A DNA stretch of 5,699 nucleotides. Origin: Treponema sp. Lineage in GTDB: Bacteria > Spirochaetota > Spirochaetia > Treponematales > Breznakiellaceae. Positions 9 to 5,560 of this stretch are shown here, in pieces. A model generated the notes under the pieces. It was not told where the DNA came from and did no database searches. It saw only the letters and a program-made list of their open reading frames with translations. The position numbers and the translations under genes were made by a program. Within the stretch, counting starts at the first letter, position 1. Each line of letters opens with the position of its first letter. The stretch is from NCBI GenBank assembly GCA_031255615.1, contig JAIRSD010000143.1, forward strand, positions 1 to 5,699. Reading direction: 5' to 3'.

Positions 9-117
9 CCGCGCAAGGGATAGGAGGGGTGCGGAGCAGCCACGCCGCAGGCGGGGCCGGAGCGAAGCGGAGCCCCGGATAGCCCGGTCCCCGGCGCGGA
101 GCGCCGGGGATGCGCCC
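9..117 (-). repeat. Structured dispersed repeat, copy A
   Basis: Read on the minus strand this copy has, in order, block 1 GGGCGCAT (110-117), a perfect 9-bp stem with loop TCC (89-109 on plus: CCCCGGCGC, GGA, GCGCCGGGG), block 2 CCGGGCTATCCG (76-87), a GC-rich region with a 6-bp CGGGGC/GCCCCG stem, and block 3 CTATCCCTTGCGCGG (9-23). The same blocks in the same order recur in copy C (5279-5378), and blocks 1 and 2 recur in copy B (3109-3162). The palindromes between blocks differ in every copy. A 68-codon minus-strand reading frame covers this stretch, but it is explained by the repeat and is not called as a gene. Function is unknown; the element may continue past the left edge of the window. 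Confidence 0.7.
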
Positions 118-276: not shown

Positions 277-1221
277 ATGAACAAGATTGAACGGGTGAAC
301 GCGGTGTTCCGGGATGAAAAACCGGACTGTACTCCGGCGGGTTTTTGGTATCACTACAAACGGGAATATAGTGTCGCCGAGATGATTAAGGCCCACCTGA
401 GCATCTACCGGGAAACCGGGGCGGATATTATGAAGGTCATGCAGGACTACGGGCAGGAGCTCGACGGGGAGATCAAGAGCCCCGCGGACTGGCGGGGGGT
501 AAAATTTCCCGGCGTCGGGTCTCCGGTCTATCAAAAGCTGGCCGATGTCCTGAAGGGGCTTTTGGACGCCATCGGCGGGGAGACCCTGATCTTCCAGACC
601 ATCTTTAGCCCCTTTAAAACTGCGGTGAACAGCTACGGCGACGCCCTGGTCATGGCCCATGCCAAGGAAGCCCCGGATCTGGTGGCCGCCGCCATGCGGG
701 GTGTCGCCGAATCCCTGGCCGAATGGGCGGCGGGTTTTGTGGAACTGGGGGCCGCGGGCCTGTTCTACGCCGCCCAGTTCAGCGAACCCGGCCGTTTCGC
801 CAGGGAAGAATGGGAAACCCTGGTAAAGCCCGGAGATCTGGCGGTGATGAAGGCCGCCGCGGACAAGGGGGGCCGGAACATCCTCCATATCTGCGGGGAG
901 CCGGAGTACCAGTTCCGCACCCAGCCCGGCTGGTTCGCCGATTATCCCGCGGCCATCGTAAACTGGTCCGTCAAGGATACCGGCCTTTCCCTCAAGGAAG
1001 GGAAGGCCCTCTTTAAGAAGCCGGTCCTGGGGGGCATGAACAACCGGGGGAACATCCTCAACGGCGGCGACGAAGAGATCAGGGCCGAGGTGGAACAAAC
1101 CTTGAGCGGCATCGGGGCCGAAGGTTTCATGCTGGGCGCGGATTGCACCATCCAGGGCCAGGGCATCAGCCATCAAAAAATAAAGGTTGCCGTGGACGCG
1201 GCCCACAGCCGCCGGATATAA
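277..1221 (+). CDS. Uroporphyrinogen decarboxylase family protein, MtaA-like (probable corrinoid or one-carbon methyltransferase)
   Basis: This is a 314-residue cytoplasmic protein of the UroD/MtaA fold. The N-terminus (IERVNAVFRDEKPD, then GFWYHY at 22-27) is typical of UroD-like methyltransferases and lacks the Arg-rich RQAGRY-type segment of true HemE. LHICGE places H204 and C206, and GADC places C290. In MtaA-type enzymes an H-x-C plus a distant C binds the zinc that activates a thiol such as coenzyme M, so a methyl transfer between a corrinoid protein and a thiol or other acceptor is inferred. The substrate is unknown, and no corrinoid protein or heme gene is adjacent. The start is the ATG at 277, preceded by a G-rich ribosome site (GGGGGA at 268-273). 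An in-frame TTG at 181 would add 32 residues but is the likely -35 box. The gene has its own promoter and terminator, so it is probably monocistronic. Confidence 0.85.
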   Translation: MNKIERVNAVFRDEKPDCTPAGFWYHYKREYSVAEMIKAHLSIYRETGADIMKVMQDYGQELDGEIKSPADWRGVKFPGVGSPVYQKLADVLKGLLDAIGGETLIFQTIFSPFKTAVNSYGDALVMAHAKEAPDLVAAAMRGVAESLAEWAAGFVELGAAGLFYAAQFSEPGRFAREEWETLVKPGDLAVMKAAADKGGRNILHICGEPEYQFRTQPGWFADYPAAIVNWSVKDTGLSLKEGKALFKKPVLGGMNNRGNILNGGDEEIRAEVEQTLSGIGAEGFMLGADCTIQGQGISHQKIKVAVDAAHSRRI

Positions 1222-2879: not shown

Positions 2880-3108
2880 GGACCCTGCTAACGCTAACGC
2901 TCCGGCATTGTGATGCCCGTGGATGGCGCGGATGTTGCTGATTGTGAAGGATCTTCGCATGAAAACCTGCGAAAAACCGGGAAATTCGCGGTTCTTCAGC
3001 TTTGCCGTTTAGTGTATTTACAAGAGACGAAGACCCGGCGGGTTTCGCCGCCCTCACGCCGCTCTGCCGCCGCGATCCTGCGCCCCTGCCGCTGCCGTGC
3101 GGGCGAAG

Positions 3109-3162
3109 GGCAGCCTCCGGCTGCCTGACAGCCCGGCCCCCGCCGCGGGCGGGGATGCGCCC
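3109..3162 (-). repeat. Structured dispersed repeat, copy B
   Basis: On the minus strand this copy reads block 1 GGGCGCAT (3155-3162), a 7-bp stem CCCCGCC/GGCGGGG (3138-3154), a block-2 variant CCGGGCTGTC (3127-3136), and a second perfect 7-bp stem GGCAGCC/GGCTGCC with loop TCC on plus (3109-3125). Block 3 is not recognisable. The string CGGGGATGCGCCCAAGA (3150-3166) is identical to 105-121 in copy A. It begins 17 bases beyond the ftsH stop codon, with block 1 facing the gene. Confidence 0.65.
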
Positions 3163-3165
3163 AAG

Positions 3166-3181
3166 AAAAAGGGCCGCCCCT
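3166..3181 (-). terminator. Weak intrinsic terminator candidate for ftsH
   Basis: On the minus strand AGGG and CCCT can form a 4-bp stem with loop GCGG, followed by TTTT. It overlaps the ftsH stop codon and the stem is short. The adjacent GC hairpins of copy B may do more to end the transcript. Confidence 0.22.
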
Positions 3182-5114
3182 ATTCCTGGCCGGTGAGGGC
3201 CTTGAATTCCTTTTCGTCCAGGGTTTCTTTTTCCAGCAGGGCCCCGGCCACCCGGTTGAGAATCTCCCGGCGCTGTTCCAGAATTTCCCGGGTCTTGGCG
3301 TATTCCGCCTCCACCATCCGGGCGATCTCCTCGTCCACATACTGCTGGGTGCTTTCCGCATATTCCCGCTGGAACATGGGTTCCTGCCGCTCGACCCCCG
3401 CCGCGCCCGCCCCCCGGGAAGTCAGGGCTACGTTGCGGAAACGCCGGCTCATGCCGTAGTCGGTGATCATCTTCCGGGCGATGTCGGTGGCCTTGGTAAG
3501 ATCGCTGGCGGCCCCGGTGGAGTACTCCCCGCTCACCATCTCCTCCGCCACGCGGCCCCCCAAAAGAATGTCGATCCTCCCCAGCAGATCGGACTGGGTA
3601 ATGGTGTAGCGATCCTCCACAGGCATTTGCAGGGTGTAGCCCAGGGCGAAGCCGCGGGGGATAATCGAAATTTTCTGCACCGGATCGGCGTTGGGAGTAA
3701 AGGCCGCCACCAGTGCGTGGCCGGCTTCGTGGTAGGCTGTGAGCTTCCGCTCCTCCGGTTTCAGGACCCTGGTCTTCTTTTGCAGCCCCGCCACCGTCTT
3801 TTCGATAGCCTCGTCAAAGTCCCGCTGCTCCACCAGCTTGCGCCCCGACCGCACCGCCAGCAGGGCCGCCTCGTTCACAATGTTCGCCAGATCCGCGCCG
3901 GAAAAGCCGGAGGTTATCCGGGCCACCGCCGCCAGATCCGCCGCGGAGGACAGCTTCACCCCCTTGGCATGGATCCGCAGAATCTCCTCCCGGCCCTTCA
4001 AATCAGGCCGGTCCACCAGCACCTGCCGGTCAAAGCGGCCGGGCCGCAGCAGGGCCGGGTCCAACACATCAGGCCGGTTCGTCGCCGCCAGAATAATAAG
4101 ACCGCTGGTCCCGTCAAAGCCGTCCATCTCCACCAGAAGCTGGTTCAGCGTCTGCTCCCGCTCGTCGTTCCCCCCCGCGATATTGTTGATCCGGCTTTTG
4201 CCGATAGCGTCCAATTCGTCGATAAAGATAATGCAGGGCGCCTTGTCCCTGGCCTGCTTAAAAAGATCCCGAACCCGGGCCGCCCCGACCCCGACAAACA
4301 TCTCCACAAAGTCCGCGCCGGACATACGGAAAAACGCCACCCCCGCTTCCCCGGCCACCGCCCGGGCCAGCAGAGTCTTCCCCGTACCCGGCGGCCCCAC
4401 CAGCAGCACCCCCTTGGGGATCTTCCCCCCAATCTCCGTGTACTTCCGGGGGTTTTTAAGAAAATCCACCACCTCCACCAATTCTTCCTTGGCCTCGTCC
4501 ACCCCCGCTACATCGTGGAAACGGGTCGTAATATCCCCCTCCGCCACAATCACCGCCCGGTTCTGCCCCACGGCAAGGACGTTCCCCCCCATAGCCCCCA
4601 GCCGCAACCGCACAAAACGCCAGATAAAGAAAAAGAAGGCGATAGGCAGCACCCAGGAAAAGATGATGTTGAGAATAGCGCTCCCCTCCCGGGAAACCGC
4701 GTAGTAGGACACGTCATGTTCATCCATCAGCCGGATGATGTCCGGATCGTTGATAGGCACCGTGCGGTACACCTGCTCCGGCGCCCGCATATAAGGAGAA
4801 ATCGGCGGCCGCATAGAAGGAATCTGCCGCGTGGAAGTGTAGCCGGTAAAATACGAATCCGTCAGCTCAACCCGCTTAATCTCCCGGTTGGCGATCCGGG
4901 CCTTAAATTCGGAAAAATCAATAGTCGGATTCACCCGGCGAAGGAACACATAGTTAAAAAGACTCATCCCCACAACAAGAATGAGAATGTACACAAGAGT
5001 AAACTTCCAGCCCCCAAAAGGCTTAAGGTCCGGCATCTTGAAAGGCCATTGGGGACCCCCGCCTTTCTGATTCTTCTTGTCGTTCCGGTTGTCGCCGGAC
5101 ATAAAATCGCTCAT
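3180..5114 (-). CDS. ftsH: ATP-dependent zinc metalloprotease FtsH
   Basis: FtsH is a membrane-anchored hexameric AAA+ protease that extracts and degrades unassembled membrane proteins and selected soluble regulators. This 644-residue copy is full length. A short basic N-terminus leads to TM1 (about 38-57), a periplasmic region (58-146), TM2 (about 147-168) and the ATPase. Motifs seen: Walker A GPPGTGKT (240-247), pore loop MFVG (272-275), Walker B IIFIDE (295-300), and arginine fingers R357 and R360 in [10 protein letters not shown]. The protease domain has HEAGH (462-466) and third zinc ligand D538 in TGAASD. The C-terminus is coiled-coil-like and ends LTGQE. The start at 5114 has AAGGA (5118-5122) only 3 nt upstream; in-frame ATG 5102 and TTG 5252 are alternatives. 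No neighbour shares its strand nearby, so it is probably transcribed alone. Confidence 0.98.
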
Positions 5115-5225: not shown

Positions 5226-5278
5226 GGGACGCAGCGGTAATTCCCCGTGCAACGGACTCCTTATATTGAAGATGTTTA

Positions 5279-5378
5279 GGGCGCATTTTTTGCGGCTCCG
5301 CCGCAAAAAACCGGGCTATCCGCTCCAATTCCCCGCCCCCGCCGGGGGCGGGGAATTCCGCTTCTATCCCTTGCGCGG
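5279..5378 (+). repeat. Structured dispersed repeat, copy C
   Basis: On the plus strand it reads block 1 GGGCGCAT (5279-5286), an 11-bp perfect stem TTTTTTGCGGC/GCCGCAAAAAA with loop TCC (5286-5310), block 2 CCGGGCTATCCG (5311-5322), a 14-bp perfect stem AATTCCCCGCCCCC/GGGGGCGGGGAATT with a 3-nt loop GCC, and block 3 CTATCCCTTGCGCGG (5364-5378). The T-run precedes and the A-run follows the first stem, the reverse of an intrinsic terminator. Orientation is opposite to copies A and B, and block 1 faces ftsH. This is the most complete copy. Confidence 0.75.
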
Positions 5379-5380
5379 GC

Positions 5381-5409
5381 GCGAAAGCCGCGCCCAGCGC
5401 GGCTTTCGC
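5381..5409. repeat. Perfect 12-bp hairpin
   Basis: GCGAAAGCCGCG (5381-5392) and CGCGGCTTTCGC (5398-5409) pair perfectly around CCCAG. It starts three bases after block 3 of copy C and is probably part of the same element or an attached module. Confidence 0.8.
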
Positions 5410-5411
5410 CC

Positions 5412-5443
5412 GCCGAAAATCCGCCTCCCTGCGGATTTTCGGC
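5412..5443. repeat. Perfect 13-bp hairpin
   Basis: GCCGAAAATCCGC (5412-5424) and GCGGATTTTCGGC (5431-5443) pair perfectly around CTCCCT, which again contains TCC. Only two bases separate it from the preceding hairpin. Confidence 0.8.
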
Positions 5444-5446
5444 CGG

Positions 5447-5471
5447 TGAGTTTTCGCTTCGCAAAAACTCA
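5447..5471. repeat. 8-bp hairpin with inner stem
   Basis: TGAGTTTT (5447-5454) pairs with AAAACTCA (5464-5471). One C/A mismatch and two more GC pairs close a TTC loop (5458-5460). It is the last hairpin in the run that starts at 5286. Confidence 0.6.
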
Positions 5472-5560
5472 TGAAGCTCTCCCCGCCCAGACCAACATGC
5501 GCCCCTCCCCCCCCCGCCGGCCTCCCTGCCGCCGCCCCCTCGCGCCCCTTTCGCATCGCT

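Follow-up and report, generated by a model that had tools for sequence, protein, structure and literature searches.

The element copies in the window, as we call the whole 5,699-base stretch of DNA analysed here, are fairly probably members of a dispersed, horizontally transferred and mobile DNA repeat that folds as a single strand, in which the sense strand of the Rfam family Flavo-1 forms a three-way junction. Two of the window copies (A and B) are strong and a third (C) is a fragment. Copy A lies upstream of the start of ftsH (FtsH, 644 aa, encoded at 3180-5114 on the minus strand), copy B lies upstream of a gene coding for a URO-D family protein (277-1221, plus strand), and fragment C sits directly past the ftsH stop; an M15 peptidase is encoded within 1373-2488 on the plus strand. 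A sequence-only reading of the window had reported three blocks in the same order at 5279-5378 on the plus strand and at 117-9 on the minus strand, with copy-specific self-complementary inserts between them, and blocks 1 and 2 again at 3127-3162. The inserts are real, and the order of blocks was borne out in both full copies. With R1, a covariance model of the full element built on 25 copies that include A and exclude B and C, copy A, as a member of the training set, scores 79.2 bits on the plus strand as modelled (E 3.6e-19), and copy B reaches 47.8 bits (E 4.1e-11). The third site is weaker than that reading had it: GGGCGCAT and the hairpin are present on the minus strand, followed by CCGGGCT and then GTC in place of ATCCG; block 2 is partial there, block 3 is absent, and R1 gives 17.3 bits (E 0.0028). 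The features of the window are as follows.

5281..5376, minus strand: copy A, the whole three-way junction P1-P2-P3; minus is the best-folding and Rfam-modelled strand, and the blocks of the earlier reading run on plus
11..115, plus strand: copy B; plus is the Rfam strand, and the blocks run on minus
3103..3160, plus strand (blocks on minus): fragment C, comprising a P1 arm, P2 and the start of block 2 only
5275..5280, plus strand: foot TTTAGG beside P1 (family consensus TTTGG), from the flank profile and the sequence
5281..5285, plus strand: P1 5' arm GCGCA, pairing with TGCGC at 5372-5376, from exact complements across copies and two-sided changes
5286..5310, plus strand: P2 (hairpin 1), T-rich arms with GCGGC; 8 of 9 P2 pairs show two-sided change in 25 copies
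5312..5324, plus strand: block 2, CGGGCTATCCGCT, which forms one strand of the irregular P3 helix, from the Rfam alignment and RNAalifold pairing with block 3
5325..5357, plus strand: P3 tip (hairpin 2), arms AATTCCCCGCCCCCG / CGGGGGCGGGGAATT, from the inverted repeat and the fold
5358..5371, plus strand: block 3, CCGCTTCTATCCCT, the other side of P3, from the Rfam alignment and RNAalifold
5372..5376, plus strand: P1 3' arm TGCGC, from exact complements across copies and covariation
5378..5412, plus strand: a further perfect hairpin, situated between copy A and the TD-2-like array, seen by eye in the sequence
5408..5501, minus strand: TD-2-like hairpin array adjoining copy A (RF03162, 43.3 bits, cut-off 48.7, E 3.1e-4; sub-threshold)

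Read on the strand of the earlier reading (plus for copy A), the parts follow in the order foot (consensus TTTGG), P1 (5 bp), the P2 hairpin, block 2, a variable hairpin, block 3 and the second P1 arm, and it is hairpin 1 together with the 5-bp closing stem that completes the three-way junction. The foot consensus derives from the flanks of 129 spirochaete copies and 54 others, and foot and P1 form a conserved boundary in both phyla. Among 125 pattern copies in the collected loci and the window, 119 lie far enough from a sequence end for P1 to be assessed; its arms are exact complements in 107 of these, with 19 different 5-mers, against a match in 5.8% when partners are swapped, and matches at a distance of 80-90 nt may be due to chance. 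On the Rfam strand of copy A the junction is the minimum-energy fold with RNA parameters (-58.7 kcal/mol, z -4.25) and again with DNA parameters (-37.7, z -5.68), and the opposite strand folds less well (-54.7 as RNA, -35.1 as DNA). The copy at locus L095 behaves in the same way, its Rfam strand folding best, also as DNA; in a Cytophagales copy (L104) the full fold forms as RNA (z -2.19) and only part of it as DNA. Copy B belongs, by eye, to a subtype in which GGGG/CCCC replaces the second P3 loop, and a copy of this subtype also stands upstream of ftsH in a relative (L251). In the Bacteroidetes copies L037 and L031 the P2 loop contains further hairpins, for example AACGCTGGCAGGGTTCGAAACCCTGCCAGCGTT, which looks as though other repeats insert at this point. 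Integron attC sites have the core sites RYYYAAC and GTTRRRY, and inspection by eye of the conserved columns of our 25-copy alignment found no such motif.

The sequence-only reading had matched the element to no named family, and in this it was mistaken, because the core corresponds to Flavo-1 and the neighbouring hairpins to TD-2, each scoring slightly below its cut-off in the window. Rfam searched with its curated cut-offs gives no match anywhere in the window; with an E-value threshold, Flavo-1 (RF01705) appears at 5385-5305 on the minus strand with 40.7 bits against a cut-off of 42 (E 2.6e-6). As copy A thus sits 1.3 bits below the curated cut-off, we call it a below-threshold Flavo-1 variant and not a formal member, and copies B and C are without a Flavo-1 listing even at E values up to 10. 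Judged by the alignment, the core of the element is nevertheless homologous to Flavo-1: the conserved irregular helix GGG-A-UA-(loop)-GC-(loop) and its partner are present in copy A, so that block 2, the hairpin and block 3 are common to both. The Rfam model (76 positions) consists of blocks 2 and 3 with the hairpin between them, and P1 and P2 are not in it. In relatives, Flavo-1 is found above its cut-off in 12 of 13 loci, and further spirochaete loci gave nine matches, in 7 of 20 loci. In the literature, the table of Weinberg et al. 2010 (PMC2864571), in the part available, places Flavo-1 in Bacteroidetes only, and the available part of another paper (PMC9029176) counts it among the most abundant small RNAs without giving a function. 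Among the titles retrieved for Flavo-1 or RF01705, none treats it as a repeat or mobile element; a search with the literal block sequence returned unrelated papers only, and one combining TD-2 with Treponema denticola returned nothing.

TD-2 is a hairpin array next to copy A, where the match (43.3 bits) lies below the curated cut-off of 48.7. Among 30 TD-2 loci from relatives (L321-L350), 11 have a full Flavo-1 element directly adjoining, with an overlap of 2-3 bases and in constant order, and none abuts in the other 19; by genome the figures are 5/5 in G002, 3/5 in G115, 2/5 in G006, 1/1 in G007, and 0/14 in G004, G008 and G117 together. The window has the same order of Flavo-1 and TD-2, with one more hairpin in between. 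TD-2, also an Rfam 'sRNA', is itself a high-copy sequence, with 64 matches in G002 and 63 in G115.

Covariation was assessed in two alignments hand-picked from about 107 copies with matching P1 arms. In the first (A4, 25 spirochaete copies), two-sided change affects 12 of 25 pairs and the covariation score is 0.350, compared with 0.113 in shuffled alignments, none of 500 shuffles scoring as high; from the same alignment RNAalifold recovers the junction unaided, with 25 pairs of which 14 show two-sided change. In the second (A1, 32 copies from both phyla), three P1 pairs show two-sided change and the tested structure has 30 two-sided cells against 10.0 in shuffles. Because the search pattern fixes blocks 2 and 3, pairs of the P3 core could not vary in these sets. 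The element is commoner than chance would give: our detector for it found 218 elements in 1.48 Mb of sequence, chosen because copies were in it, and none in the same sequence reversed without complementing. With many copies and covarying stems, the maintenance of the fold is supported.

The manner in which the arms change is informative about the process behind it. In P2, 25 copies hold no one-sided cells (such as G-C to G-U), 67 two-sided cells and 8 unpaired ones. Between copies that differ at one or two stem positions, two-arm changes outnumber one-arm changes by 121 to 21 in P2 (90 copy pairs) and by 65 to 16 in the P3 tip (54 copy pairs), in comparisons where the arm finder favours paired arms and the copy pairs are not independent. 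Across 199 copies, 1,429 of 1,509 inner P2 positions are Watson-Crick, and isolated wobble-type mispairs amount to 3 G-T and 12 A-C; for comparison, 19 tRNA acceptor stems from the same sequences have 14 G-T among 133 positions. The excess of A-C over G-T (p 0.035) indicates that wobble is slightly more tolerated on the Rfam strand. The sequence-only reading had taken changed arms with retained pairing as the mark of selection on a fold; the fold is indeed maintained, but the pattern is odder than that. Both arms change in concert, and steps that are one-sided or pass through G-U are almost absent, which is more in keeping with a process acting on DNA than with step-by-step compensation in RNA.

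Wider searches found many further copies, in spirochaetes and Bacteroidetes, in one clostridial MAG and in phages, one of them a circular microvirus. A scan of 84,980 species genomes gave at least 119 stretches with the pattern and, among the matches listed, 63 are from spirochaetes, 54 from Bacteroidetes and one from Clostridiales Family XIII (counted by eye). In whole-genome counts, which scored at most 150 candidates per genome, five spirochaete MAGs have at least 149, 150, 150, 116 and 142 matches, and three other spirochaetes have 19, 47 and 3; five Bacteroidetes genomes have 2-36 each, and two viral records have three and one. Most of the name series of these MAGs we take to be termite-gut ones. 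Surveys that scored 16-18 candidates per genome, and are therefore undercounts, found the repeat in 24 of 247 Spirochaetota (two of them known carriers) and 38 of 247 Bacteroidota (29 above the cut-off, one a known carrier), and it was detected in none of 14 control genomes. Against plasmids, copy A gave short matches to three records, none covering 80%.

The clostridial MAG (G009, locus L045) holds 71 matches and is the single positive among 99 genomes of its family, the repeat being detected in none of the other 98. The LeuS encoded beside one of its copies shares 84% identity with one family member, 64-74% with most of the rest (one stands at 41%), and 50-59% with the better spirochaete matches, some of which are partial. 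Since this LeuS is clostridial, it is very unlikely that the copy beside it lies on a spirochaete contig binned in error.

Pattern scans of a viral collection yielded 12 contigs with a confirmed copy, 11 by the detector (L003, L277, L278, L279, L280, L352, L353, L354, L355, L357 and L358) and one by R1 (L006). L351 and L356 have a pattern match only, and the matches in L001, L002, L004 and L005 looked, by eye, like chance ones. A terminase adjoins the copy in L003 and a portal protein lies near that in L279. L277 is the circular genome of a single-stranded DNA phage (a microvirus) carrying the repeat: its 4,627 bases have a 121-base terminal overlap and encode a capsid protein of the microvirus type (PF02305) as well as a pilot protein and a replication initiator; the Flavo-1 element, at 2325-2413, is intact and lies between genes. 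The INPHARED phages gave one short match to the microvirus copy, at E 1.

Copies are mostly intergenic and without orientation bias. With ORFs called by a simple script, only 4 of 199 distinct copies lie inside an ORF of at least 150 aa and more than 150 nt from its ends; 71 have no gene on one side in the piece examined, and the 124 with both neighbours comprise 46 along and 38 against co-directional genes, 23 in divergent gaps and 17 in convergent gaps. Within the co-directional gaps (n=84) the median distance is 72 nt to the end of the upstream gene and 134 nt to the start of the downstream one, and the flank profile has no T run after P1. Movement of the IS200/IS605 kind would predict a bias by replication strand. 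With replication arcs set by eye from GC skew in 20 sampled stretches of each of two genomes (G617 and G653), 43 of 79 copies lie on the lagging side (p 0.50), and in G653 alone 27 of 41 (p 0.06).

Signs of movement come from the window's own ftsH locus, compared with the FtsH loci of 30 relatives, several of the closest of which keep the gene order. The gap between ftsH and the peptidase gene measures about 725 nt in the window, with fragment C, and about 410 nt in L246, with a full copy, against only about 71, 151 and 41 nt in L245, L248 and L249. A short sequence similar to block 2 occurs in L248, and in L250 a decayed copy lies downstream of the gene for FtsH. On the upstream side of ftsH, copy A stands in the window and L246 beside a conserved, promoter-like (by eye) TTGAATAAGGG...GGATATTT, and the stretches compared in L245, L247, L248 and L249 have no copy there. 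Both ftsH sites are thus occupied in the window and in L246, and unoccupied in L245 and L249. At this locus the window and L246 have the copy, its orientation and its P2 in common; they differ in the P3 tip, and in the L246 copy one base is missing from each side of the first 3x3 loop. Given about 80-86% identity among these relatives, the comparison gives presence/absence differences and not base-exact empty sites, and a joined-flank search with 199 flank pairs found no empty site in the sequence collected, its sole junction-spanning match, at its own locus L023, being taken as false. The same window gap holds two perfect palindromes with arms TTGTTCA...TGAACAA, at about 2590-2622 and at 2679-2715. 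The first has the loop ACTTCAGT, which recurs with different arms in similar hairpins at L257 and L132, perhaps another repeat family with fixed loop and variable arms.

The best sign of transposition, albeit of a composite, is in G005, where the element forms the core of a 160-164-bp unit with inverted ends (a MITE) whose 3-bp TNA duplications agree, by eye, in six of eight two-ended copies. Inverted ends and TNA duplications are shared with MITEs of IS5-like families, which this unit presumably resembles. Such a unit was seen in G005 only and most copies are without such ends: a strong outer inverted repeat is present in 10 of 171 copies and was not found in the other 161. The copies in G010 have a different one, CTACTTTACGAAGT.

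Like REP, BIME and REPIN sequences, the repeat is a dispersed, intergenic, imperfect palindrome in high copy number with a one-sided foot, and compensatory arm change has been reported for REPINs too, in the available part of PMC3116915. A REP is one hairpin, whereas the Flavo-1 repeat is a three-way junction. The part of PMC6006769 available to us defines REPs by a GT[AG]G foot 5' of the hairpin; here the foot is TTTGG. Nor is a RAYT/TnpA-REP gene regularly flanked by the repeat, full copies occurring at 4 of 29 Y1_Tnp loci, all four in G002 (at least 150 copies), and an inverted doublet of the REPIN type is rare, with 2 of 25 neighbouring pairs lying within 300 nt (both inverted). A Y1 transposase was found in none of four of the 11 carriers searched (G003, at least 150 matches; G004, at least 116; G006; and G009), MAGs that may be incomplete, and in the other carriers Y1 genes are not regularly beside copies. 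We therefore rejected membership of the RAYT-driven REPs, because Y1 genes are not regular neighbours and the foot is not GTAG, and read the repeat as one that behaves like REP elements yet fails their definition, having neither a GTAG foot nor a consistent RAYT neighbour. Bacteroidetes TnpA-Y1 proteins of subclass 2.6, from the same phylum as many Flavo-1 carriers, are associated with unusual repeated secondary structures according to the part of PMC6006769 available. We rejected Flavo-1 as these 'atypical structures', since the two subclass-2.6-like genes, at L222 and L234, are without Flavo-1 in the stretch examined. At L234 (genome G014) the subclass-2.6-like gene is instead flanked by repeated double hairpins of a sequence unlike Flavo-1, CTGTAGTT..AACTACAG and GTCCGAAGTC..GACTTCGGAC, which are candidates for the 'atypical' REPs of that paper. 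Separately, 177-223 aa ORFs at five loci of G002 (L228, L230, L233, L235 and L237) match PF01797 weakly and are perhaps a repeated, divergent family; a motif search in them found no HuH and tyrosine pair.

Rfam types Flavo-1 as 'Gene; sRNA', a structured non-coding RNA, so that transcripts of the Rfam strand would fold and act as RNA and the copies would form a multi-gene RNA family. Covariation of the stems, the strand asymmetry of the loops and of wobble (12 to 3 for the Rfam strand) and the L104 copy, which folds fully with RNA parameters only, agree with this, as does the coincidence of several Flavo-1 matches with 5' transcribed regions (PMC9723704, in the part available). The available part of the same paper also places Flavo-1 in F. 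psychrophilum in sense or antisense indistinctly, and many positions outside transcribed regions. Together with the unbiased gene orientation (46:38), the near absence of G-U, and hundreds of copies in some genomes with none detected in most relatives, this makes an RNA family rather unlikely. The choice between RNA and single-stranded DNA, which the sequence-only reading had left open, is tilted towards a DNA repeat by the lack of orientation bias, the distribution and the presence/absence differences.

There are two further accounts of the element. In one, the junction is not itself mobile and could have spread only as a passenger, carried by MITEs or IS-like units that have terminal repeats of their own, and by recombination, as the TIR-bounded unit with TNA duplications in G005 and the separate outer inverted repeat in G010 might suggest; 161 of 171 copies without a strong outer inverted repeat, and a boundary of foot and P1 conserved in both phyla, render this improbable. 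Alternatively, the host could maintain an intergenic hairpin for transcript ends, mRNA stability or a DNA-binding protein, much as REPs serve gyrase or IHF. The lack of enrichment between convergent genes (17 of 124), the absence of a T run after P1 in the flank profile, the lack of the repeat in most relatives and the copies in phages make such a role quite improbable, set against the mostly intergenic location, the proximity to the upstream gene's end and a structure kept at an orthologous site. That last observation, of a site at which the copy common to the window and L246 has retained its structure, may point to a local function and so tells against a mobile repeat, as do the lack of a base-exact empty site, of Y1 genes in four carriers, of a regular RAYT neighbour and of lagging-strand bias, the TIR-bounded MITE in one genome and the partial DNA fold of L104.

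In the junction, P1 is the closing stem, with the TTTGG foot beside it, P2 is the copy-specific hairpin, and P3, a conserved helix of irregular form, contains purine 3x3 loops and ends in a tip that varies. For the mobile DNA repeat that we prefer, the following mechanism may be proposed. The element would spread as a non-autonomous one: when its strand becomes single during replication, rolling circle or conjugation, a putative trans-acting ssDNA nuclease or recombinase might recognise the junction and act at the foot, by analogy with the action of RAYTs on REPs. The arms could stay perfect if one arm templates the other (hairpin-primed correction) or if whole hairpins are exchanged.

A broader proposal, which we offer as a serious though tentative possibility, is that Flavo-1, one of the 'sRNAs' most often annotated in bacteria, represents not an RNA gene but a new class of non-autonomous mobile DNA, an ssDNA three-way junction moved in trans by a putative ssDNA enzyme. 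It would cross phyla (Bacteroidetes, spirochaetes and one clostridial lineage) and pass onto ssDNA phages, its arms would be kept paired by arm-to-arm copying, and it would join TD-2 modules into composites. Should the element prove to be mobile DNA, many sequences annotated as 'sRNA' in Bacteroidetes and spirochaetes would be mislabelled. The addition of P1 and P2 would improve the model and define a substrate for capturing the protein that handles it, and the near absence of G-U in covarying stems may offer a cheap test to tell DNA palindromes from true RNA families elsewhere in Rfam.
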